Of a stretch of 64,000 bases of DNA, positions 23,786-44,109 are shown piece by piece. This DNA comes from Pseudotabrizicola formosa (GTDB taxonomy: Bacteria > Pseudomonadota > Alphaproteobacteria > Rhodobacterales > Rhodobacteraceae): contig NZ_PJOM01000002.1 of the NCBI RefSeq assembly GCF_002900965.1, forward strand, positions 1,054,001 to 1,118,000, read 5' to 3'. Numbering within the stretch: the stretch's first letter is position 1; each line of letters begins with the position of its first letter. The notes beneath the pieces were generated by a model. That model did not search any database and was not told the DNA's origin. It saw nothing but the letters and a program-made list of their open reading frames with translations. The translations under genes and the position numbers were made by a program.

Positions 23786-25231
23786 CTACCGGCTTCCTGC
23801 CGCGATCTGCAGGGCAAGCCGCAGATCATCTGTCAGCTGTGTTTCCGCGCGCACCTGTGCCGCTCGGTCGGGCAAGCGCAGACAGTAGGAGGGATGCAGG
23901 GTGATCAGCACCGGGCTGCCGTCCGCTGTCGTTTCCAACCTGCCCCGACGGGAGGTCAGACGCGTGCCATCTCCGGTCAGCGCCGCGGCGGCAGTCGCCC
24001 CCATCGCAACCAGAAGCCCCGGCTTCACGGCCTGCCGCTCAAGATCCAGCCACCAGCGGCACAGAGAGATTTCATCCTGGGTCGGGCGCTCATGCAGCCG
24101 ACGCTTGCCACGCGGTTGAAACTTGAAATGCTTGACCGCGTTCGTAACGTAGACCTTCGCCCGGTCCAGCCCTGCCGCTGTGGCGCAGCGGTCAAATACC
24201 TGCCCCGCCGGCCCGACAAAGGGCCGCCCGGCCAGATCTTCCGCATCGCCGGGCTGTTCTCCGACAATCATCAGCGGGGCATGGCGCGGCCCCTCGCCCG
24301 GCACGCCCTGCGTGGCGCAGGCCCCGATCGGACAGCGTCGGCAGGCATCAAGGGCGGGCTTCAGATCCTCCAGACCGACGTCAGCCGTCAGCGCGGGACG
24401 CTGCGGCCGCAGCCTTGCAACATGGGCAAGCTCCAGCGTCGGCATCGCCTCCTGCATCCCCCGTGCCCGCGCGGGGGCGGCCCGGATCATATCGGGGATC
24501 AATGCGGCTTCGGGCAGGTTCTTCCAGTATTTCTTCGGCATCTCTGACGTCATCGCCGACACCATCAGCCGGGCTGGATTGAAGATGCTGGCGAAATAGG
24601 TGCACCACAATTTCTCTGTCGCATCTTCGGGTGGCGGGGCGTGATGGGCGGTTGGCGCGAAGGTCAGCAGACCGTCTTCAAACCGGGCGGTCAGCGACGG
24701 GGTGGCAATCACCCAGTCCATATCGCCAAACCGTCTGGCAAAGAACGGCGCGGCGGCTTCGACGATGGCATGTTCGGGTTCAAACCAGGCCGCAAAGGCC
24801 CGCCGTGTTGCATCGGGCGGCGTGACATCGCGGAAGCGGACGAAAGCGTGCATCTTGTGGATGTCGCGCCGCACCGCCTTTTCCTGGTCCAGCAAGCGTC
24901 GCAAAGGCGCATCCGACCTGTCCCCCCAGCGCAACGCCTTGCCAAACAGCCGCAGGGCGAGGGCATAGGCGCGGGCAAAGCGCTGCGGATCAGAATGGCA
25001 CAACGCCGTTTCGATCGCGCCGATCACTTCGCGCGGCAGGGTCAGCGGTGGGACCGAGGGGTCCGGCACCGGGCCGTCCCCACCGGGCGGATCTGCCGCA
25101 AACAGATCTGCCCCGCCCTCCCCCACCTGCCACAGCACCGCCTCTGGCGGCACCGACCTGCGCGCAAGCTGGCGAACATGACCGCGCCACGCGGCAACCG
25201 TTCCGATCAGCGGCAGCCGGATCACGCGCAT
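23786..25231 (-). CDS. DUF4130-UdgX fusion: uracil-DNA glycosylase-like protein
   Basis: 481 residues in two parts. Residues about 1-260 are a DUF4130 domain (DIHKMHAFVRFRDV, FEPEHAIVEAAAPFFARRF). Residues about 280-481 are a UdgX-type glycosylase with GEQPGDAEDLAGRPFVGPAGQ and the R-loop KRRLHERP. The His of that loop is the residue that bonds covalently to abasic DNA in characterised UdgX proteins. Cysteines for an FeS cluster are present (CRRCPIGACAT). Its ATG shares one base with the stop of the upstream radical SAM gene. The pair is a conserved DNA-repair unit, here with an SOS box. Confidence 0.88.
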   Translation of the reverse strand: MRVIRLPLIGTVAAWRGHVRQLARRSVPPEAVLWQVGEGGADLFAADPPGGDGPVPDPSVPPLTLPREVIGAIETALCHSDPQRFARAYALALRLFGKALRWGDRSDAPLRRLLDQEKAVRRDIHKMHAFVRFRDVTPPDATRRAFAAWFEPEHAIVEAAAPFFARRFGDMDWVIATPSLTARFEDGLLTFAPTAHHAPPPEDATEKLWCTYFASIFNPARLMVSAMTSEMPKKYWKNLPEAALIPDMIRAAPARARGMQEAMPTLELAHVARLRPQRPALTADVGLEDLKPALDACRRCPIGACATQGVPGEGPRHAPLMIVGEQPGDAEDLAGRPFVGPAGQVFDRCATAAGLDRAKVYVTNAVKHFKFQPRGKRRLHERPTQDEISLCRWWLDLERQAVKPGLLVAMGATAAAALTGDGTRLTSRRGRLETTADGSPVLITLHPSYCLRLPDRAAQVRAETQLTDDLRLALQIAAGSR

Positions 25232-26460
25232 CAGAACAACGACAGCTGCTCGGGCGGCGGTGCAAAGCGCGCCCGCAGATTTTCGTCATCCGTCAGCGCG
25301 CGGGGCGACCAGCCCGGCAGCGAGATGAACGGCTGCGCATGACGCAACACGCAGCCAAGCGGGATCAGATCCTCATAGCGCAGGCTGCGGTGTTTGCGCG
25401 CCGCCAGCATGCGGTCCACCGACCTTGGGCCAAAACCGGGCACGCGCAACAGCATCTCGCGCGGGGCCTTGTTCACATCGACAGGAAAGCTCTGCCGGTT
25501 CGCAATCGCCCAGGCCAGTTTCGGATCGATCGCCAGATCCAGCATCCCGGATTTCGGCGCGATTTCATCATGGGTGAACCCGTAAAAGCGCATCATCCAA
25601 TCTGCCTGATACAGCCGGTGTTCCCGCATCAACGGCGGCCGGATCAGCGGCAACAGACGCGAACTGTCAGGGATAGGAGAAAACGCCGAATAATAGACCC
25701 GCCCCAGCCTGTACGCGCCATAGAGCTGCGAGGCCGTGCCCAGGATCTGCCCATCCGTGGCACTGTCCGCCCCGACGATCATCTGCGTCGACTGTCCCGC
25801 CGGCGCAAAGCGGCTGGCCTTCTTGCCGCCATGGCTGACATCGCGCGCCGCCTCGCGCCGGCTGCGCACATCGGCCATCGCCCGCCGGATGGTCTGCGCC
25901 GATTTTTCGGGGGCAAGGGCGGTCAACGCGGCCTCTGTCGGCAGTTCCACATTGATCGACAGCCGGTCCGCCCATTTGCCCGCCGCCTCGATCAGCTCGG
26001 GCGCAGCATCAGGGATGGTCTTGAGGTGAATATAACCACGAAAATTCTCGCGCTCCCGCAGGGTCTGGGCGATGCGCACCATATCGGCCATCGTGTCATC
26101 GGGGGACCGGATGATGCCCGATGACAGGAACAGACCCTCGATATAGTTGCGGCGATAGAATTCGACGGTCAGCTGCACCACCTCATCCACCGTGAAGCGC
26201 GCCCGCTGAACGTGGCTGGACACCCGATTAACGCAATAGACACAGTCATAGATGCAGAAATTCGTCATCAGGATCTTGAGCAGCGAAATGCAGCGCCCGT
26301 CCGGGGCATAGGCATGGCAGATCCCCGCACCGCCCGATGACCCAAGGCCTTTTCCATCGCCGGAATTGCGCTTTTCACCGCCCGATGATGCGCAGGACGC
26401 ATCGTATTTTGCGGCATCGGCAAGAATTGCCAGTTTGTCCTGAAGTGTCCTTTGCGCCAT
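25231..26460 (-). CDS. Putative DNA modification/repair radical SAM protein
   Basis: 409-residue radical SAM protein. The cluster motif is CIYDCVYC (CxxxCxxC), followed by RNYIEGLFLSSGI and the GYIHLKTIPDA segment. The C-terminus has a helix-hairpin-helix-like DNA-binding stretch (LLRVPGFGPRSVDRMLAARK). It is the standard partner of DUF4130-UdgX proteins; the chemical reaction is not established to my knowledge. I chose ATG 26460 rather than the in-frame ATG at 26514, because the LexA box at 26474-26488 would otherwise lie inside the gene. Confidence 0.85.
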   Translation of the reverse strand: MAQRTLQDKLAILADAAKYDASCASSGGEKRNSGDGKGLGSSGGAGICHAYAPDGRCISLLKILMTNFCIYDCVYCVNRVSSHVQRARFTVDEVVQLTVEFYRRNYIEGLFLSSGIIRSPDDTMADMVRIAQTLRERENFRGYIHLKTIPDAAPELIEAAGKWADRLSINVELPTEAALTALAPEKSAQTIRRAMADVRSRREAARDVSHGGKKASRFAPAGQSTQMIVGADSATDGQILGTASQLYGAYRLGRVYYSAFSPIPDSSRLLPLIRPPLMREHRLYQADWMMRFYGFTHDEIAPKSGMLDLAIDPKLAWAIANRQSFPVDVNKAPREMLLRVPGFGPRSVDRMLAARKHRSLRYEDLIPLGCVLRHAQPFISLPGWSPRALTDDENLRARFAPPPEQLSLF

Positions 26461-26473
26461 GCGCCCTGTATAT

Positions 26474-26488
26474 GTTCGCTTTATGTTC
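26474..26488. promoter_or_regulatory. LexA (SOS) box
   Basis: GTTC (26474-26477), 7 bp, GTTC (26485-26488): the direct-repeat operator GTTCN7GTTC of alphaproteobacterial LexA. It lies 14 bp before the radical SAM start, so the repair pair is very likely SOS-induced. Confidence 0.8.
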
Positions 26489-26564
26489 TTGTTAAGCGAA
26501 ACCGTCGCGGGCAAGCTGACATCTGCGTGACCAGGCAGCAGGCCAAAGCCCTGCGGGGACGCCG

Positions 26565-27311
26565 TCAGCGGCGCAGCGCCTGCGCCTCGGCGGCAGGGTC
26601 AAGGGCCGGCGAAGCGGCGACGTCATCAAGGAAGCGGTCGATCAGCGCGGTGCCAATCTCGGACGCCGGCTGATAGGCCTCGCCCCCCCTTGCGGACACG
26701 GCCAGGGCAATGTCCCAACCTGCCTCTGCCCGGCAGGCAATGGCACGGCTGGTTTGGGTGCTGATCAGCCGGCACAGACCAAGATCGGTTTCATAGCTGG
26801 CCAAGGCCCGGGCCTGAGTGCCATCGGTCAGCGTGACCTCTCCACCCGTCGGTACGGCAGCCAGAGCCAGGGCCGCGGCCTCTGGTCCATTTGCCTCGGC
26901 CAGGGTCGGCGGGGCGGCGCTGCGTCCCACCACAAAACCGGCGGCCCCCACCGCCAGCACCAGCGATGCAGCAAGCGCAAGGCCCCAGCTGTTTGCGGCA
27001 CGCTGTATCCGCTGAGCAAAGGGCAAAACCGCAGCTCCCGTTTCGCCAGCCACACCGGCATCAGCCGCATGGGTCGCACTTGTCGGCACGCCGCCTCCCT
27101 GCATCACCGCAGCGATCAGGTGCTGCGGCACCGGCTCCGGCGGGAAGGCCGCCTGCATCAAGGCCCGCGTTTCGCTGAAGACCGCGAAACGCGCCGCCAG
27201 ACCCGGGTCGGCTGCAACACGCGCCCGCAGATCCCGTGCCAGCGGTTCGGGCAGCTCTCCATCAGCCAGGGCCATCAACATCTCTGTGCTCACTTCATCG
27301 GTTCGGATCAT
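26565..27311 (-). CDS. Anti-sigma factor (membrane-anchored)
   Basis: 248 residues. The N-terminus (EVSTEMLMALADGELPEPLARDLRARVAADPGLAARF) is the short helical anti-sigma region common in Rhodobacteraceae; I see no HxxxCxxC zinc motif. One membrane segment lies around residues 108-128 (LALAASLVLAVGAAGFVVG), and the rest is probably periplasmic. Its ATG overlaps the sigma gene stop by 4 bp (ATGA), the usual coupling for a sigma/anti-sigma pair. It probably holds the ECF sigma factor inactive until an envelope signal. Confidence 0.85.
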   Translation of the reverse strand: MIRTDEVSTEMLMALADGELPEPLARDLRARVAADPGLAARFAVFSETRALMQAAFPPEPVPQHLIAAVMQGGGVPTSATHAADAGVAGETGAAVLPFAQRIQRAANSWGLALAASLVLAVGAAGFVVGRSAAPPTLAEANGPEAAALALAAVPTGGEVTLTDGTQARALASYETDLGLCRLISTQTSRAIACRAEAGWDIALAVSARGGEAYQPASEIGTALIDRFLDDVAASPALDPAAEAQALRR

Positions 27312-27829
27312 CGGGCAATCCCTCGGTGTGGTCCCGTATCGGGCGTGGCGTTCAGACTATGGGCCAAAGACAGGCGGGCGCGCGACAGACGGCTCATCAC
27401 CGTGCCTTCGGGGATACCCAGTGCAGCGGCCACCTCGCGGTAGCGCATGCCCTCGACACAGACGAGCATCAGCACCGTGCGCTGCTCTTCCGGCAGCCCT
27501 GCCATGGCGCGTCGGACCTCGGCCAGATGCAGGCGGTTTTCGGTTGTCCTGCGGCCATCTTCCCCCATCACCGTATCGGCCCCGGCATCGTCCAGCGGCT
27601 GGGTGTCGCGGCGGGCGCGGACCATGTCGATGAACGCATTGCGCATGATGCGAAACAGCCATGCGTCCATCCGTGTGTCAGGCGCGTAGCTGTCCAGATG
27701 GCGCAGGGCCTTTTCCACCGTGATCTGCACCAGATCATCGGCCAGATCGGCGGCCCCTGTCAGGCTGCGGGCAAAGGCGCGCAACCGGGGCAACAATGTG
27801 ATCATTTCGCTGCGACTATCGGTGGTCAC
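27308..27829 (-). CDS. ECF-family RNA polymerase sigma factor
   Basis: About 173 residues. Region 2 is LRAFARSLTGAADLADDLVQITVEKALRHLDSY ... DAWLFRIMRNAFIDMVRARR, and region 4 is LPEEQRTVLMLVCVEGMRYREVAAALGIPEGTVMSRLSRARLSL. I propose the GTG at 27829 because the ATGs at 27886/27889 fall within or ahead of the promoter motif at 27871-27896 that probably drives the gene. It is divergent from the subtilase gene. Three GGAATAAA...CGTT sites around it suggest it controls itself and the downstream cluster. Confidence 0.85.
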   Translation of the reverse strand: MTTDSRSEMITLLPRLRAFARSLTGAADLADDLVQITVEKALRHLDSYAPDTRMDAWLFRIMRNAFIDMVRARRDTQPLDDAGADTVMGEDGRRTTENRLHLAEVRRAMAGLPEEQRTVLMLVCVEGMRYREVAAALGIPEGTVMSRLSRARLSLAHSLNATPDTGPHRGIAR

Positions 27830-27870
27830 ACGTGGTCCATCCCGGCAAAATCTGTTTTTGGTGCCGGTGT

Positions 27871-27896
27871 AACGGCTGCTGGTCATCATTTATTCC
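27871..27896 (-). promoter_or_regulatory. Predicted autoregulatory ECF promoter (sigma/anti-sigma operon)
   Basis: On the minus strand, GGAAT (27896-27892), 17 bp, CGTT (27874-27871). The -35 is extended as GGAATAAA, identical to the two sites at 27945 and 29329. Its last -35 base differs from the EcfG GGAAC sites elsewhere in the window. Confidence 0.65.
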
Positions 27897-27944
27897 GATG
27901 GCCGCCAGAAAAAATCCTCTTTCTGCCATTCACGGAGCTGTGCA

Positions 27945-27970
27945 GGAATAAAAGGCCCGGCTGTGGCGTT
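27945..27970 (+). promoter_or_regulatory. Predicted ECF promoter of the subtilase gene
   Basis: GGAAT (27945-27949), 17 bp, CGTT (27967-27970), with the same GGAATAAA extension as the divergent sigma promoter. It is 48 bp before the S8 peptidase start. Confidence 0.65.
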
Positions 27971-28018
27971 ATTCAGGCTTGCCCCCCTTGATCAAGGCCG
28001 CCCGCGAAAGGACAGACC

Positions 28019-29335
28019 ATGGACAGTGATCCGCGCCAAAAGACCACCCGCCGCGCCCTGTTGCGCCGCATCGGCCTGGCGTCCGGCCTGGCCTATGTCG
28101 CCCCCAGCCTGACAGGCCTCGGGATTGCCCGCGCCTCGTCGAGCGGAGGGTCCGGGGCCTCGGGGGCGTCGCGCGACAGCGGCGGGTCCAGACCCGGCCA
28201 GCCACGCCCCCGTCGGAGCCAGCCGCCGCGCCGTGTGGCAGTGCCGGCCCGTCCCGAAATCCTGATCCTGCTTGGTCCAGAGCAGAATTTGACCCCGGCA
28301 CTTGCCGCAGGCTATACGCTGCTGGCCGAAGCCGAGACAGCGGCACTGTCCGGCAGGCTGGCGCGACTGTCCCTGCCGCAAGGGCGAACGGTCGATACCG
28401 CGCTGGTCGAACTGGCAGGGCTGATCCCAGGGGCCCTGGCAGATCAAAACCATCTTTACACACCCGACGACTTCACCTGCACCGCCGAGGACTGTGCCGC
28501 GCAGGCCATGATCGGCTGGTCAGGCTGGCCCAGTGCGATGGCCCCCAAGATCGGGATGATCGATACCGGGATCAATGTCGATCACCCGGCGCTGATCGGC
28601 CAGAAGCTGACCGTGCATCAGATCGACCTGGCCGACCGCGACGCTGCGGGGCGCGCGCATGGCACGGCCATTGCCGCCCTGCTGATCGGCACAGTCACCG
28701 GGCGGGTGCCGGGGTTGCTGCCATTTGCAGACCTTATCGCGGTAGAGGTGTTTCATCAGGACGCAGGCGGTGAGGTGGCCGATGCCTTTGCCCTGATCCA
28801 GGGGCTGGAGCTGTTGCTGGCCGAAGGGGTCAGTGTGATCAACATGTCCTTCTCGGGCCCGGCCAATGCCGTACTGGAACGCATGGTGGTCCGCGCCGAT
28901 GTCGCGGGTATCGCCATGGTTGCCGCTGCCGGAAACGGCGGGCCGGGCGCGGCGCCGGCCTATCCCGCCGCATGGGCGCAGGTGATTGCGGTGACAGCCG
29001 TAGATTCGGCCGAGCAACCGTACCGGCAAGCCAATCGCGGCCCCTATGTCATGCTGGCGGCACCGGGGGTATCGCTCTGGACGGCGGCATCCATCTCGGG
29101 CGGACGGTTGCGGTCGGGCACCTCTTACGCCGCCCCTTTCGTCACGGCGGCACTGGCGGTGGAACGGTTGCGCACTCCAGACCTGGCCGTGCCCGAGGTG
29201 ACGCAAAGGCTATTCGCCTGTGCCCGTGATCTGGGAGAGGCCGGGTTTGACACAACCTTTGGCCACGGGCTGCTGACCGCGCCAGGGCAATGCACACGCG
29301 ACAAATCAGAATTTTTTACCATCAGCGGGGAATAA
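28019..29335 (+). CDS. Subtilisin-like (S8) serine peptidase with Tat-like leader
   Basis: 438 residues. The N-terminus TTRRALLRRIGLASGLAYVAP then ARAS resembles a twin-arginine export signal. A Ser/Gly/Arg/Pro-rich linker follows (about residues 40-75). The catalytic triad is Asp182 in MIDTGIN, His214 in AHGTAIAA and Ser369 in SGTSYAAPF; the oxyanion Asn is in AAAGNGG. Expected location is periplasmic or surface. The next gene encodes a small protein with a nearly identical leader and a similar low-complexity tract, a possible substrate or partner. An ECF promoter precedes it. The ATG at 28019 follows AAAGGACAGACC. Confidence 0.88.
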   Translation: MDSDPRQKTTRRALLRRIGLASGLAYVAPSLTGLGIARASSSGGSGASGASRDSGGSRPGQPRPRRSQPPRRVAVPARPEILILLGPEQNLTPALAAGYTLLAEAETAALSGRLARLSLPQGRTVDTALVELAGLIPGALADQNHLYTPDDFTCTAEDCAAQAMIGWSGWPSAMAPKIGMIDTGINVDHPALIGQKLTVHQIDLADRDAAGRAHGTAIAALLIGTVTGRVPGLLPFADLIAVEVFHQDAGGEVADAFALIQGLELLLAEGVSVINMSFSGPANAVLERMVVRADVAGIAMVAAAGNGGPGAAPAYPAAWAQVIAVTAVDSAEQPYRQANRGPYVMLAAPGVSLWTAASISGGRLRSGTSYAAPFVTAALAVERLRTPDLAVPEVTQRLFACARDLGEAGFDTTFGHGLLTAPGQCTRDKSEFFTISGE

Positions 29336-29353
29336 AGCGCGGATGCGTCCGTT
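29329..29353 (+). promoter_or_regulatory. Predicted ECF promoter of the Ser/Arg-rich protein gene
   Basis: GGAAT (29329-29333), 16 bp, CGTT (29350-29353), again with the GGAATAAA extension. It overlaps the last bases of the subtilase gene and is 52 bp before the next start. Confidence 0.6.
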
Positions 29354-29405
29354 TTCCTGACAGTGCCGGACCACAGAACCGGCCCAACCTGAAAAGGAAA
29401 ATCCC

Positions 29406-29759
29406 ATGTCCAACGACACCAAGACATTGATCTCGCGCCGGGCCCTGCTGGGCCGTATCGGTCTGGTTGCAGGTGCGGCCTATGTTGCCCCCACTCTCGC
29501 CGGCTTCAATGCGGCGCGCGCCAGCGGCACCAGCGGCAGCGGCACATCCGGCGGCGCAAGTGGCGGCACCTCTGGCGCATCACGCGGGTCGGGCGTTTCC
29601 GGCGCGTCGCGGCCCTCGCGCAACTCTGGCCTGTCGCGGCCTTCGCGCCAGTCACGCCCGTCGCGCCAGTCACGCCCGTCGCGCGGGGCCCGTCGGACGG
29701 ACGCAACCGGCGACCTGGGCCGCGACATGAACAGGCTTTTGCGCAGCATCGGTCTGTAA
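29406..29759 (+). CDS. Small secreted Ser/Gly/Arg-rich low-complexity protein with Tat-like leader
   Basis: 117 residues. Residues 10-39 are a Tat-like signal (SRRALLGRIGL ... AAYVAPTLAGF ... ARAS) closely matching the leader of the preceding subtilase. Residues about 40-62 are a Gly/Ser/Thr tract, and residues about 63-97 are Ser-Arg repeats (SRPSRQ units). The C-terminus TDATGDLGRDMNRLLRSIGL looks like a short amphipathic helix. No enzyme domain is present. It lies between a protease and an HprK-PqqD protein, so it is a good candidate for a modified or processed peptide. The start follows AAAAGGAAAATCCC. Confidence 0.75.
   Translation: MSNDTKTLISRRALLGRIGLVAGAAYVAPTLAGFNAARASGTSGSGTSGGASGGTSGASRGSGVSGASRPSRNSGLSRPSRQSRPSRQSRPSRGARRTDATGDLGRDMNRLLRSIGL
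29645..29680 (+). repeat. 18-bp tandem repeat within the Ser/Arg-rich gene
   Basis: Two exact copies of an 18-bp unit (29645-29662 and 29663-29680) encode successive Ser-Arg-Pro-Ser-Arg-Gln hexapeptides. A degenerate copy lies just upstream. In-frame copy-number change could lengthen or shorten the protein. Confidence 0.8.
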
Positions 29760-29778
29760 TCTCATGACGGGGACGCCA

Positions 29779-31041
29779 ATGGTGCCTGCCCCTCTGCGAA
29801 CCCGCCCTGCGCGGGTTCGCAGACCCGCGCGCAAGCCAGTGCAGCGGCTTGATTTTGACGGCGTTGCTGGATCTGTCCTGATCGAGGCCGCGCCAGATCT
29901 GGTCACGGCCTTGCGCCGGATTGCACCCGACTGGCCCTGTGAGATAGCGCAGCAGACGCGAGTCGCGCCGGAGGCTGCCGATGTGCTCGCCAGTGTCACG
30001 GCACTGGAAGACGGCCTCACCCTGCAGTCGCGCTATGCCGACAGCCCCCTGCCCGGCCTGTCTCTGGCTGCTGCCGCTTGCGCCCTTGCCGCCGACCTGT
30101 CGCAAGGGTTTGTCGATCACCGGCCAGATCTGGGGGCCCTGCATTGTGGCGCGGTCGAGGTCAACGGAAGGCTGGTGGCGCTGACCGGGGCACACCGGGC
30201 GGGCAAAAGCACCCTGATCGCCCGTCTGACGGCCGAGCCGCAGATGCGGGTGTTCTGCGATGATGTGCTGCCGATTCTCCCGGATGGGCAGGGGCTTGCC
30301 TTGGGGATCTCGCCCCGGCTGCGGCTTCCGCTGCCCGAACGCGTCTCGACCCGGTTCCGAACGCATGTGGCACGCCATGTGTCTTTGCATGATGACCGCT
30401 ATGCCTATGTCTCTGCCCCCGGCCAGGCCCCGCATGGCACGACCGCACCGCTGTCAGTGATTGTCGTGCTGGACCGACGCGACGCCGGTGCTGCGCGGCT
30501 GCACCCTATTGCGACGGATATGGCGCTGCGCCATGTGCTGGCGCGAAATCTGGCCGATCTTGGCAGCGCCGAGGTGGCCTTTGCGCAGATGCACGCCCTG
30601 GTCAGCGGCACGCTTTGCCTGCGCATGGTCTATGCCGATCTGGAAGAGGCGGTGGCCTTGCTGCACACGGCCTTTGGCGGGCCAGGTCGGCTGAACCCGG
30701 CTTTGCCCCTTGCACCCGATGACAGCAATCCGCCCGCGACCGCCGCGCCAATCGACCCGGTCGATCCGCATCTGGTCTGGCGGCATCACCCACAGGTGGC
30801 ACGGCGACAGGTCGGCCAGTCCTCTTTCCTGTGGATGCCCGACGACACGGTTCTGCACCATCTCAACCCGCTGGGCGCGGCGATCTGGGCCTTGCTGGAA
30901 ATTCCCGGTTCTGCGACCGATCTGGCCGAGGCTCTGGCGGAAGTGTTTCCCGAACACCCCATGACCACCATCCTGACGGACACCGCACGTCTGCTGGCCC
31001 AGCTGGCCAAGCACGGGATGATCCTCTCGTCCGACGCATGA
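29779..31041 (+). CDS. HPr kinase-like domain fused to a PqqD (RiPP recognition) domain
   Basis: 420 residues. The first about 300 form an HPr kinase/phosphorylase-like domain. The P-loop is GAHRAGKST (about 137-145) in LVALTGAHRAGKSTLIARL, with CDDVLPI after it where HprK carries a catalytic Asp. The C-terminal about 90 residues are a PqqD-like domain (HLVWRHHP ... LWMPDDTVLHHLNPLGAAIWALLE ... LAKHGMIL), the fold that binds leader peptides in RiPP systems. HprK-like kinases phosphorylate Ser in some peptide systems, such as lasso peptides. The Ser-rich secreted protein directly upstream is the obvious candidate target. ATG 29779 follows GGGGACGCCA; an ATG at 29764 has no site. Confidence 0.8.
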   Translation: MVPAPLRTRPARVRRPARKPVQRLDFDGVAGSVLIEAAPDLVTALRRIAPDWPCEIAQQTRVAPEAADVLASVTALEDGLTLQSRYADSPLPGLSLAAAACALAADLSQGFVDHRPDLGALHCGAVEVNGRLVALTGAHRAGKSTLIARLTAEPQMRVFCDDVLPILPDGQGLALGISPRLRLPLPERVSTRFRTHVARHVSLHDDRYAYVSAPGQAPHGTTAPLSVIVVLDRRDAGAARLHPIATDMALRHVLARNLADLGSAEVAFAQMHALVSGTLCLRMVYADLEEAVALLHTAFGGPGRLNPALPLAPDDSNPPATAAPIDPVDPHLVWRHHPQVARRQVGQSSFLWMPDDTVLHHLNPLGAAIWALLEIPGSATDLAEALAEVFPEHPMTTILTDTARLLAQLAKHGMILSSDA

Positions 31042-39931: not shown

Positions 39932-40064
39932 TTCTCCACCTTAAGCCATTGAATAAAAACGTATTTTATGTTGCCCTTATTCCCGACCGCTGAACTTCAC
40001 ATGGCGGCTTTACGCCCATCAAGCGCACATATCCGAAACGAAACGGTATCTGGAGGTTTGATAC

Positions 40065-40154
40065 ATGGGCTTCGATCTCGTGCTCGGCGGCATCGTTGCC
40101 GCAGCGCTCCTTGTGTACCTGCTGGCCGTGCTCCTGCGGCCGGAACGGTTCTGA
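40065..40154 (+). CDS. kdpF: KdpF, small subunit of the potassium-transporting ATPase
   Basis: 29-residue single-helix membrane peptide (MGFDLVLGGIVAAALLVYLL then AVLLRPERF), the usual KdpF size and pattern, ending in the typical RPERF. A good ribosome site, TGGAGGTTTGATAC, precedes it. KdpF stabilises the KdpFABC complex. Here the rest of the complex is broken, so it has no obvious partner. Confidence 0.85.
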   Translation: MGFDLVLGGIVAAALLVYLLAVLLRPERF

Positions 40155-40164
40155 GGGGCGTGGC

Positions 40165-40878
40165 ATGGCACAACACCAAAACACATCGATCTTTTCCGCC
40201 GACCTCGTCGGGCCAGCTATCCGGGACAGTTTCACCAAGCTCGACCCGCGCCAGCTGATCCGCAACCCGGTGATGTTCACCACGGCCATGGCGGGCATGT
40301 GGCTGAACGCGACATTCGGCGGCGTCGGCGTGGGGATGATCAACATGTTCCTCTACATCATCGTCGCGGTTTTCGTCGCGGGCATGATGGTCGGGCGCAC
40401 CCCTGAATACCTCGGCCACAGGATCGAGGCCAAGGAGGTGCGGCTGGCCATTCTGGCGCTGTTCTCTCACGCGGTCCTGATCCTCGGGCCCACGGCGCTG
40501 TTCGCCGCGACCTCGCTGGGCCAGGCCACTGTTCAGGACCCGGGCGCGCACGGCTTCTCTGAGATTCTTTACGAGTTCACGTCGGCTGCGGCCAACAACG
40601 GCTCGGGCTTCGAGGGCTTGGGCGACGGAACCTGGGCCTGGAACATCGCCACAGGCATCGTGATGCTGCTGGGCCGTTACCTCCCCATCATCTTGCCGCT
40701 CGCCATTGTGGGCAGCCTGATGGCCAAGCGCCGCGCGGCGGAAAGCGCGGGCACGCTTGGCGTCGAGGATGCGACCTTCGGCACGATGCTTGGCTTGACG
40801 GTCGTCATCTTCGGCGCGCTCACCTTCCTGCCGGCGGCTGCTCTTGGTCCGCTGGCCGAACACTTCTCGCTGCCCTGA
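40165..40878 (+). pseudogene. Chimeric kdpB'-'kdpA remnant
   Basis: An open frame of 237 codons joining two proteins. Codons 1 to about 40 (MAQHQNTSIFSADLVGPAIR ... DPRQLIRNPVMFTT) are the N-terminus of KdpB. From about codon 41 on (MAGMWLNATFGGVGVGM ... GRTPEYLG ... GPHGFSE-like ... GALTFLPAAALGPLAEH) it is the C-terminal third of KdpA. The KdpA selectivity-filter repeats 1-3 and the whole KdpB catalytic part (DKTGT phosphorylation site) are missing. A simple in-frame deletion explains it only if kdpB preceded kdpA; otherwise a rearrangement or an assembly error is needed. It cannot encode a working pump. Confidence 0.8.
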
Positions 40879-40902
40879 CCGGCGCTGACAGGAGACAGAA
40901 CC

Positions 40903-41478
40903 ATGAATGACATCATCTCAGGGCTTCGCGTCACGGCCGCAACGATGGCGATCTGCGTCGCAGGCTATACCACGGTGATCCTCGGCTTTGCGCAGGCCGT
41001 GACACCGGCGACGGCCAACGGATCGCTGATCACTGATGACACCGGCACAGTGATTGGCAGCCGCCTGATCGCGCAGGGCTTCACCTTTCCGGAATACTTC
41101 TGGCCCCGACCATCGGCGGTGGACTACGCCGCCGATGGCGCAGGGGGCTCCAATCTCTCTCCTGCCAACCCCGAGTTGGCAGAACGGGCGGAGGCGCTGA
41201 TCACGGCCCATGGCGGAGTCGACGGCACCCTGATCCCCGCGGATCTGGTGACCGCCTCGGGCGCGGGGCTGGACCCCCACATCTCGCGAGAGGGTGCGCT
41301 CTTTCAAGTGACCCGCGTGGCCGAGGCGCGCGGGGTCGAGCCTGCTGCCATCCGGGCGATTGTCGACCGGTTGGCCGAACGGCCCGGCGGGATCTTCACC
41401 GCGGCCAGGATCGTCAACGTCTTGGAATTGAACCTCGCACTCGATGCGGAATTGGTAAGTCCCGCCAGTACAGAGTAA
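40903..41478 (+). CDS. kdpC: KdpC, potassium-transporting ATPase C chain
   Basis: 191 residues, full length. One N-terminal membrane helix (TAATMAICVAGYTTVILGFAQ) is followed by the periplasmic domain with EYFWPRPSAVDY, GGSNLSPANPEL and the ASGAGLDPHIS motif, all characteristic. The ATG at 40903 follows ACAGGAGACAGAACC. It is intact but follows a destroyed kdpA/kdpB, so it is probably without function. Confidence 0.9.
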   Translation: MNDIISGLRVTAATMAICVAGYTTVILGFAQAVTPATANGSLITDDTGTVIGSRLIAQGFTFPEYFWPRPSAVDYAADGAGGSNLSPANPELAERAEALITAHGGVDGTLIPADLVTASGAGLDPHISREGALFQVTRVAEARGVEPAAIRAIVDRLAERPGGIFTAARIVNVLELNLALDAELVSPASTE

Positions 41479-41487
41479 AACAGTACC

Positions 41488-44109
41488 ATGACAGATGATG
41501 CCCGCCCCTCGCCCGATGCCCTGCTGCGCGAAGCGCAACGCGAGGGGCGTGGCACCCTCAAGATCTTTCTCGGTGCCGCCCCCGGTGTCGGGAAAACCTA
41601 TGAAATGCTTCTCGAAGGCGCAGAAAAGCTTGAGGCTGGCGCGGATGTGGTGATTGGCATCGTCGAGACCCACGGCCGGAAAGAAACCGAGGCGCTGGTC
41701 TCGCCCCTGCCAGTGATCCCTCGCAAGACCATCGACTACAAGGGCCAGACACTGACCGAGATGGACCTCGATACAGTCCTTGAGCGGCGGCCGGAGATTG
41801 TCCTGGTCGACGAATTGGCCCACACCAACGCGCCCGGAAGTCGGCATCCCAAGCGATGGCAGGATATCGAGGAGTTGTTGGCCGCAGGCATCGACGTGAT
41901 GACCACGGTCAACATTCAGCACGTCGAAAGCCTCAATGACATCGTGGGCAGCTTCACCCATGTCCGCGTGCGGGAGACCGTACCCGACAAGGTGTTCGAG
42001 AACGCCGAGATCGAGTTGATTGACCTGCCGCCCGAGGACCTGATCCAAGCGGCTGGACGCCGGCAAGGTCTACGTTCCAGACCAGGCCCGCCACGCGCTT
42101 GACCACTTCTTCTCGAAGGGCAATCTGCTGGCGCTGCGGGAACTCGCCCTGCGCCATGCCGCACAATATGTCGATGCCCGCATTCAGGAGCACAAGAACG
42201 TCACCGGCAAGGAGAACGGCTACACCGGTGGGCAGCGGCTTCTGGTTGCCGTCTCCCAGGCGGCCGGATGCGAGCAGGTGGTGCGTTCTGCAAAGCGGCT
42301 CGCCGATGCGCTGAAAGCCCCGATGATCGCTCTCTACGTCGAAACTCCGGCCGCTGCGCGCTTCAGCGATCCCGAAAAAACGCAACTCGGCCGCAACCTG
42401 TCACTCGCGGCATCATTGGGGGCCACCCTGCAATCGGTCCCCGCAACCTCGGCGCAGGAAGCCATACTTTCACAAGCCAGGGAAATGCGTGCAACACAGC
42501 TGGTCCTCGGCAGGTCGCGCGGCAGCGGCGGCTGGTTCAGGAGGCGCGACCGGGTCGTTCAGGACATCCTGGACCGTACGACCGGCATCGCAGTCCATGT
42601 CATCCGCTTCGACGAAACCCCACGCGCGCGCGACTGGCGGCGACTGCTGCCCCGCGAAAACTGGACCGGGGACGTAGTTGGGATCGCATCGGTGGGGGTG
42701 CTGACACTGATCGCCTATCTCGCGCAGGGCTGGATCGGGCGGGGTCCGATCGACATGCTGTATCTGGTGCCGGTCATTGCGACCGCCAGCTTTTACGGTT
42801 CCCGCGCAGGCCTTGTCGCGGCTATCGCTGCCGGGATCGCCTACAACTTCTTCTTCCTCGCCCCGGTCTACACCTTCATCATCTATAGTCCCGCCAATGT
42901 CATCACGGCAGTCTTGCTGGTGATCGTGGCGGTCATCACCAGTCAACTCGCGGCCCGCGCACGGGCCGCCGCGGCACTTGCCATGCGCAGCGCCCGCGAG
43001 AACGCCGGTCTCGCCCGTTTCGCCACGCGCCTTGGCGCTGCGAGCACCACGGAAGAGACGGCACAACTTATCAGAGATGAGCTACGGTCGTTGCTGGCGG
43101 TGCAGACGATCGTGCTGCACCGCTCCGGGGACAGCGTTGAGATCAGCGCGTTCGGACAAACAAAGCCGAAACTCACCCCCATTGATCAAGCGGCGGCCGA
43201 GTGGGTTATGGAGCACGGCGAAGACGCCGGCTTGGCAACCAACACACTCACGGCCAGCGAGTGGCAGTTCCGCCCCCTCAAGACGTCACTCGGGACGCTT
43301 GCGGTGCTGGGGTTCCGCGGACCACCGGGTCGCGATCCCATTCCCACCGAGCGCGCAGCACTGGCAGAGAGCCTGATCGACCAGGCAGCACTTGCCCACG
43401 AGCGTCTGAAGCTGGAAACCGACATGCGCGACATGGAGGTGGTCCGCCAACGCGACAGCCTGCGTGCGGCGTTGCTCGCGTCGCTCAGCCACGACTTGCG
43501 CACACCTCTGACGGCCGTGACGGCGCTGAACTTGTCGAGACGGTGCGCAGCGAGGCCCGCAGGTTGAACCGCTTCCTGTCCGACCTGTTGGACCTGACCC
43601 GGATCGAAGAAGGGGCCGTCACTCCCGATCTTGTCCCGACGGATCTGACCGACGTTATCGCCTCTGCGGTCGGCGACCTGGCCAAGACGTTGGCAGGGCG
43701 CAAGGTACAGACCTCAATCGACCCGAACCTGCCTCTCGTGCGGGCCGACGCGGTTCTGTTGAACCACGCGCTCCTGAACCTGGTCGACAATGCGGCCAAG
43801 TATTCGCCGCAGGAGGAACCGATCGAGATTATCGCGCGGATGGGGCGGCGCGGCCCGGTGATCGACGTGCTCGACGGTGGCCCCGGCATTCCCCAGGGCA
43901 GCGAACAGCGCATTTTCGACCGCTTCGCCCGCGGCGAGACATCGGATCGCACCGGCGGATCGGGGCTCGGCCTTGCCATCGTCAAGGGCTTTGCAGAGGC
44001 GATGGGCTTCACGGTCGAGGCCGCGCGGCGCCAGGGCGGCGGATCACGCTTCACCATCCGTATCCCCCATGAGGCTACAGTCCACGTGTCGATGGAGGAC
44101 ATCGCGTGA
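41488..44109 (+). pseudogene. kdpD: kdpD sensor kinase, broken by a frameshift and an internal deletion
   Basis: The reading frame changes twice. Frame 1 (41488 to about 42048) holds the KdpD domain (GAAPGVGKTYEML, VDELAHTNAPGSRH, TTVNIQHVESLND). At 42047-42048 one extra A shifts the frame; the expected QRLDAGKVYVPDQ resumes in the next frame. That frame runs to about 43530 through the USP-like domain, four membrane helices, GAF and LSHDLRTPLTAVTA. There an out-of-frame deletion removes the residues after the acceptor His, and LVETVRSEARRLNRF ... GSGLGLAIVKGF continues in a third frame to 44109. The protein would be truncated at 42102. Confidence 0.85.

Follow-up and report, generated by a model that had tools for sequence, protein, structure and literature searches.

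The systems closest to the five-gene cluster described here, which is located at positions 26565-31041 of a 64,000 nt stretch (the window) of the 3.70 Mb Pseudotabrizicola formosa genome (contig NZ_PJOM01000002.1), are the linear polyphosphorylated peptides (LPPs), which come nearest, and the phosphorylated lasso peptides. According to the accessible part of the LPP paper (PMC13381572, 2026), LPPs occur in Bacillota and combine an HprK-like kinase, a PqqD-type recognition element (RRE) of the kind known from ribosomally synthesized and post-translationally modified peptides (RiPPs) and a YxxP leader with an SipW-like peptidase and a transporter of their own, and one Ser is phosphorylated. The phosphorylated lasso peptides (paeninodin, Bsf and SyanK; kinase K plus B1) have a kinase with the H..GKS..DD residues, an RRE of the B1 kind and a YxxPxL leader. 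The HPr-rel-A systems (TIGR04352/TIGR04353) also include an HprK-related kinase with a PqqD-type protein. The cluster in the window shares these kinase, RRE and leader features, but it is found in Pseudomonadota, its kinase and RRE are fused in one protein, whereas they are separate in LPPs, and its leader is a signal of the twin-arginine translocation (Tat) type. In addition, proteins with Ser repeats as well as a subtilase are its putative clients, and genes for extracytoplasmic function (ECF) sigma factors or two-component systems are located alongside. Analysis of its sequence suggests that the cluster is probably an ECF-controlled, RRE-guided Ser-phosphorylation system coupled to Tat export. 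We file it as a Tat-coupled relative of the LPP and lasso kinase–RRE pair. A literature search that left most subscription journals outside found no published description of such an RRE/HprK-PqqD/twin-arginine system. The words "Tat", "Proteobacteria" and "Pseudomonadota" do not occur in the accessible main text of the LPP paper, nor does "kinase" in that of a 2025 RRE survey (PMC12710340).

Five adjacent genes, as proposed in the initial annotation, were found in the cluster and their coordinates were confirmed. The genes encoding the anti-sigma factor and the ECF sigma factor are located on the reverse strand; the genes of an S8 subtilase, a Ser/Arg-rich protein (117 aa) and the kinase-PqqD fusion are divergent from them, on the forward strand. 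The Ser/Arg-rich protein (gene position 29406-29759), a putative substrate, contains a twin-arginine leader with the motif YVAPTL (Y26, P29, L31; leader profile E 4.9e-17), an AxA site and Ser/Gly/Arg repeats, and no Pfam family matched it at E<=1. The subtilase (28019-29335; Peptidase_S8 E 4e-30), a second putative substrate, carries the leader motif YVAPSL (leader profile E 1.6e-14) and a Ser-rich mature N-terminus. The fusion (29764-31041) was assigned as an HprK-like Ser kinase (residues ~25-305) joined to a PqqD/RRE domain (residues ~335-422) on the basis of a PqqD profile, profile matches in the PDB, an AlphaFold2 model and invariant residues. An identical gene order was found on Paracoccus and Shinella plasmids and on one Pseudotabrizicola contig. 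Since the order recurs and in 31/31 aligned loci the gene of a leader-bearing small protein precedes that of the fusion at a distance of -10 to 120 nt, the genes are associated more than by chance. The genes and their domains, the conserved catalytic residues, the leader motif, the RRE contact residues, the co-occurrence and a promoter-like motif were all read directly from the sequence.

The kinase half was not matched by any HprK model of Pfam. It aligned weakly with the NCBIfam model of HprK-related kinase A (TIGR04352; 32.1 bits, cut-off 200), and none of the curated HprK models PF07475, TIGR00679 and TIGR04352 scored over its cut-off. Membership in HPr-rel-A was rejected, the scores being far under both cut-offs (32.1 of 200 and 17.8 of 35). 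A profile of the 31 aligned fusions (A1) was then compared with the PDB, and it matched the solved HprK chains 3tqf (E 7e-4), 1ko7 (0.016) and 1jb1 (0.036). The AlphaFold2 model of the fusion, built from 29 rows, had a mean predicted local distance difference test (pLDDT) value of 91.7 and a predicted template modelling score (pTM) of 0.87. The Foldseek matches listed for this model (50 of 318) were PEPCK entries, and HprK was absent among them. PEPCK belongs to the fold superfamily of HprK. The residues H127, A146-G147-K148-S149, D166, D167, R238 and W375 were invariant in 31/31 fusions, and the His, GKS and DD elements are spaced much like the motif H148-G163-G166-G168-K169-S170-D186-D187 given for the lasso kinase BsfK in the part of its paper that was available (PMC10368454). 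These characteristics support the assignment of the fusion as an HprK/PEPCK-fold kinase of the lasso-peptide-kinase kind with predicted Ser phosphorylation, in line with the HprK-like kinase domain that had been proposed from the translated sequence.

The PqqD half was matched by the Pfam PqqD family PF05402 at residues 359-420 (E 1e-9). In addition, the A1 profile matched the leader-binding RREs TbiB1 (5v1u, 2.8e-9), 9x8z (2.1e-7), TfuB1 (6jx3, 3.3e-6) and 9x90 (1.2e-4). By these matches the nearest relatives of the domain are RREs that bind the leaders of lasso peptides and LPPs, and the expectation that the C-terminal domain is a PqqD domain of the leader-binding type was borne out. In the LppB-LppA crystal structure, as described in the accessible text, N33 of LppB fixes a kink at the Pro of the leader and D70 forms a hydrogen bond with the Tyr (PMC13381572). 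Profile alignment placed these residues at N368 (28/31 fusions, Asp in the other 3) and D406 (30/31). The domain is thus a predicted binder of the YxxPxL leader.

The N-termini of the Ser-rich protein and the subtilase are alike (SRRALLGRIGLVAGAAYVAPTLAGFNAARAS and TRRALLRRIGLASGLAYVAPSLTGLGIARAS). The single leader that the initial annotation had assumed for both was recovered by the leader profile, and it contains, as a further detail, the YxxPxL motif of lasso and LPP RREs. In 44 aligned leaders, selected with a loose leader pattern, R11, R12, Y26 and P29 were invariant, RRxx[hydrophobic] and YxxP followed by a hydrophobic residue (L/M/F/V/I at Y+5) were found in 44/44, and the distance from RR to Y was 15 residues in 41/44. 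Ala was found at Y+11 in 50/51 and at Y+13 in 48/51 leader proteins of a pattern-selected set, corresponding to an AxA site. The RRxx[hydrophobic] pattern, the hydrophobic stretch and the AxA site allow us to assume that the leader is a putative Tat signal. The curated TAT models remained below their cut-offs (TIGR02811, 15.3 of 48.45 for the small protein of the window; TIGR01409, 13.4 of 16.7 for a protein of locus L052), and TatC is present in the P. formosa genome. Given the YxxPxL leader and the conserved RRE contact residues N368 and D406, a recognition motif of the lasso/LPP type is located inside this twin-arginine signal. In its own genome the leader was found in only two proteins, both of this cluster. 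Note that in another genome with the kinase (G206, contig C6) a leader-like protein that is not linked to the kinase and contains a GGSSS repeat was observed (locus L112, 6480-6929), in which YVAT replaces YxxP.

The presence of an RRE-type motif within a Tat signal could also be explained if the fusion were a Tat proofreading factor, its RRE holding the leader and ATP releasing it, while the clients would hardly be phosphorylated or not at all. REMP chaperones likewise bind Tat signals before export, although they have other folds and are not known to contain a kinase domain. An export chaperone would be consistent with a P-loop protein whose P-loop is unusual and with clients that include a large enzyme. 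However, the His, GKS and DD residues are kept in 31/31 fusions, and the Ser-rich clients and the Ser/poly-Asp exchange described below would be left without explanation. We therefore regard a pure chaperone as unlikely and prefer a kinase that uses the leader as its docking site.

The distribution of the kinase and the leader was evaluated in 295 genomes of the family. Matches to the fusion were obtained in 33/295 genomes; 10 with weak partial matches were left out and 23 were kept at E<=2e-17, one of which (G123) has a kinase broken by a stop. The leader was found at E<=1e-8 in 24/295 genomes, including all 23 with the kinase. In the 24th (G196), the leader is located near a contig end and is followed by a cut-off kinase, a 71-aa open reading frame (ORF) that matches the kinase start (E 9.7e-15). 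The leader E values showed a gap from 8.8e-9 to 3.7e-6, and no further genome was better than 3.7e-6. Note that the 44 leaders on which the leader profile (A4) is based were mostly from genomes searched later; of the 24 positive genomes, G123, G196 and G197 were outside the training set. A phylum search gave matches to the fusion in 9/398 genomes, and 5/5 newly found full-length fusions adjoin a YxxP leader protein; for G321 and G821, where the match was broken or partial, no leader protein was found in the fetched flanks. Thus, the co-occurrence of the small protein and the fusion in other genomes, as implied by the initial annotation, was established by the neighbour survey (31/31 loci and 23/23 of the 295 genomes).

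In a class-wide search, 49/385 genomes contained some kinase match, weak ones included, and the kinase was often a separate gene. Fifteen such kinase-only-gene loci were fetched from these matches: a PqqD gene adjoins 12/15, with none beside the kinase in L093, L094 and L100, and the leader is present in 11/15. Six loci (L062, L091, L092, L095, L097 and L099) have a common convergent neighbour family, which Pfam identified as NTP_transf_5 in L091 and L092. An NTP_transf_5 gene is also reported in the Bsf and LPP clusters by the accessible parts of the respective papers (PMC10368454, PMC13381572), which is a further likeness to LPPs. These six loci may represent an earlier condition that resembles LPPs but has a Tat leader.

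To describe the region behind the leader, 51 leader proteins of fused-kinase loci were analyzed, near-copies included. Counted from the Tyr of the leader, the frequency of Ser peaks with a period of three residues (0.57 at Y+14, 0.53 at Y+17, 0.57 at Y+20 and 0.45 at Y+23), with 0.41/0.37/0.45/0.33 at the residue after each peak and troughs of 0.20/0.29/0.12 at Y+16/19/22. No position behind the leader exceeds 0.57, and Ser is enriched and in phase to about Y+38. This enrichment and phase argue for tract phosphorylation in the fused-kinase group. Another explanation is that the kinase (poly)phosphorylates a single Ser shortly after the leader, in which case the Ser repeats would serve as a flexible spacer that is exported. 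According to the accessible texts, LppK and BsfK modify Ser3 of the core, with several phosphates possible (PMC13381572; PMC10368454), and Ser is commonest here at Y+14, Y+17 and Y+20. However, with no Ser position above 57% in the 51 proteins and the phase continuing to about Y+38, we consider the single-site explanation possible and clearly less probable than phosphorylation of the tract.

The subtilases provided a second view of this region. A subtilase was found in 37/295 family genomes at E<=1e-40, and 30 subtilase loci were read among these 37 genomes. Among the 16 nearest (E<=2.3e-59), two, from P. formosa and G026, both with the kinase, contain the leader and a Ser-rich mature N-terminus. 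Thirteen have acidic runs of 5-43 residues at that place (4 with and 9 without the kinase), and the N-terminus of one (G292) was unreadable; the absence of the kinase from G147 is uncertain, as this genome is just 73% complete. The 14 more distant subtilases that were read have acidic runs of <=4. The subtilases of L134-L138 and L140-L143, from genomes without the kinase and located mostly beside an ECF factor, contain acidic runs of up to 43 consecutive residues near the mature N-terminus. The stretch reads ARASDASAPSGRAS in Paracoccus Arc7-R13, which has the kinase, AWADDDDDDDDDDDDDD in P. denitrificans, AHADDDESDDDDD in Paracoccus AK26 and ALADDDDGDDDD in R. leguminosarum. The subtilase records of the last three contain no kinase; their chromosomes were not searched. 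No small acidic protein was found beside the acidic-run subtilases (14 loci, 1500 nt flanks). Acidic runs at the place where the leader-bearing subtilases carry Ser are expected if that Ser is phosphorylated, and the preferred reading is that a putative phosphoserine tract stands in for poly-Asp.

It was further found that the genes for the ECF factor, the anti-sigma factor and the subtilase are a separate module. The distributions of the subtilase and the kinase differ: the subtilase was found at E<=1e-20 in only 8/28 kinase-type genomes, and outside the clade of the window 18/20 such genomes show no subtilase relative at this threshold. In G026 the fusion and the small protein are located on one contig and the trio, with a leader-bearing subtilase, on another. 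The trio also occurs without the kinase in many genomes, including on plasmid records, and the pair of kinase and substrate occurs without the trio. Such separability would be expected if the trio were a stress module that merely adjoins the pair. However, the five leader-bearing subtilases that were read (window, L002, L003, L004 and G026) are all from loci or genomes with the kinase, so that the subtilase carries the leader of the kinase even where the trio is on another contig, and in P. formosa the same promoter-like motif precedes both trio and pair. A chance neighbourhood of unrelated genes is quite improbable on this evidence, and the subtilase looks like a second client of the kinase, contributed by a separable module.

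According to the initial annotation, the subtilase was to act as the maturation protease of the small protein. The genes are adjacent, the leader is the same, and many RiPPs are matured by proteases. Nevertheless, this part of the proposal was rejected, since the trio is separable and 18/20 kinase-type genomes outside the clade of the window have no subtilase relative (E<=1e-20), while the AxA sites suggest an ordinary signal peptidase; a maturation role is very improbable. The subtilase is better regarded as a putative client, and it may not be the only further one. In six loci (L047, L050, L052, L053, L055 and L056), all on one well-supported tree branch of 14 rows (support 100/99), a second leader protein is encoded behind the kinase, and it contains a linker of Ser and Pro and a domain of PepSY-like type. 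The domain match is below the cut-off (E 0.014), and the model of the protein is good only in the domain (block means of 74-93 from residue 81; overall mean 67.4). In five of these loci two more gene families follow, which in L052 are a response regulator and a histidine kinase. The sensor of L052 weakly matches the CusS sensor domain, and in L047 a transposase-like ORF, recognized by eye, cuts in behind the PepSY-like protein.

The remaining two genes of the cluster concern its control. The ECF sigma factor (Sigma70_r4_2 E 5.8e-18) is encoded at 27308-27805 on the reverse strand; its ORF opens at 27889, but the real start is probably 27805, because a promoter-like motif overlaps the longer ORF. 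The putative membrane anti-sigma factor (26565-27311, reverse strand) was matched below the cut-off by NCBIfam NF052375 (E 1.9e-5), shows one hydrophobic segment by eye and has relatives at the same place in other loci. The motif GGAATAA-N15-CGTT is located at 27871-27896 on the reverse strand, 65 nt before the ECF start, and at 27945-27970 on the forward strand, 48 nt before the subtilase start; with N14 it is found at 29329-29353 (forward strand), 52 nt before the Ser-rich protein gene and overlapping the last subtilase codons. A fourth match (39958-39983, reverse strand) has no obvious gene behind it. These four matches in the window (shuffle mean 0.02) are also the only ones in the whole genome (reversed control 1), and 3/4 are at gene starts of the cluster. 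In L002, L003, L004, L037, L039 and L111 the motif likewise precedes genes of the ECF factor, the subtilase or the small protein, and in L133 it does so in the form GGAATAG. Among 20 further genomes, the exact motif was present at the kinase locus in 0/13 of the other clade, and no motif match at all was obtained in G040 and G165, the two genomes of the window's clade that show no subtilase relative at E<=1e-20. We infer that the ECF factor may control its own gene and those of the subtilase and the Ser-rich protein.

The proposed sequence of events is as follows. The released ECF factor would transcribe its own gene, the subtilase gene and the Ser-rich protein gene, with the fusion behind it, from the GGAATAA-N14/15-CGTT promoters. 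In the cytoplasm, the PqqD/RRE domain would bind YxxPxL within the twin-arginine leader of the clients, and the tethered HprK-like kinase would phosphorylate Ser residues of the low-complexity stretch that starts directly after the leader. The clients would then exit via Tat and the signal would be cut at AxA, leaving a protein rich in phosphate and a subtilase whose N-terminus is likewise rich in phosphate. We infer binding, phosphorylation and its sites, Tat export and ECF control alike. As a guess, the products could serve in cation binding, envelope protection or control of the protease.

Several observations weigh against this reading, whose support is sequence-based. The P-loop is unusual, as the upstream glycines are not conserved (where BsfK has G163, 12/31 fusions have Gly, and where it has G166, 26/31 have Arg), and activity is therefore not a given. 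According to the accessible texts, the characterised lasso and LPP kinases act on a single Ser, which in some cases receives several phosphates (PMC13381572, PMC10368454), and phosphorylation of BsfA persists after replacement of Tyr(-17) or Leu(-12) with Ala (PMC10368454). The 11 proteins analyzed from kinase-only-gene loci contain little Ser near the leader and lack the three-residue phase, and the leader was not found in 4/15 of these loci, one of which begins at a contig edge. Four kinase genomes (G175, G132, G283 and G135) keep an acidic-run subtilase, so the Ser/acidic swap is not simply tied to the presence of the kinase. It may be that the Ser-rich regions, like the poly-Asp regions, are nothing more than linkers, and basic cores (SRPSRP) would yield a product of mixed charge. 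The promoter-like motif was derived from inspection of the cluster itself, overlaps in part with the stop of the subtilase gene and, in its exact form, was not found at the kinase loci L038, L041, L042 and L043 of the window's clade.

A broader and more tentative proposal, for and against which the case is close to balanced, is that the Tat signal doubles as a RiPP-type leader, through which an RRE-kinase fusion would put a phosphoserine tract on whole exported proteins, the protease included, before Tat export. Evolution would have swapped this phosphate polyanion for encoded poly-Asp in the same protease family. The system would span Alphaproteobacteria and Halomonas-type bacteria with varied control, by an ECF factor here and elsewhere by genes for a response regulator and a histidine kinase, together with a PepSY-like protein that bears the leader. 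If true, RRE-guided modification would reach exported proteins, beyond small natural-product peptides, Tat signals would be able to carry a second code, and bacteria would have a dedicated route to extracellular phosphoserine. In addition, one protease family would contrast a Ser tract plus kinase with encoded poly-Asp, and the core of the system would consist of two genes.

Neither a lasso cyclase C nor the SipW-like SpI peptidase and MsbA-like transporter of LPPs were found among the 18 Pfam-scanned proteins of the window, ten neighbours elsewhere and the annotated Paracoccus and Shinella regions; whole genomes were not searched for them. A hidden lasso cluster was rejected, as the P. formosa genome contains no B2 leader protease (Transglut_core3). 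B2 was found in 6/46 kinase-type genomes, always on a different contig or, in G184 and G489, on the same contig but >600 kb away. In G609, lasso-type B2 matches are located on contig C3 near further kinase-like and PqqD-like matches, with the leader-type locus on C11; this genome perhaps contains a genuine lasso cluster as well, on C3.

Two other regions of the window were noted. At 23789-26514, on the reverse strand, the gene of a radical SAM protein adjoins that of a DUF4130/uracil-DNA-glycosylase-family fusion. At 40060-42100 the kdp operon looks rearranged: a KdpF-like start is followed by an ORF joining a short KdpB-like N-terminus, recognized by eye, to no more than the final third of KdpA (348-548 in Pfam positions), and KdpC and a fragment of the KdpD sensor come after this joint ORF.

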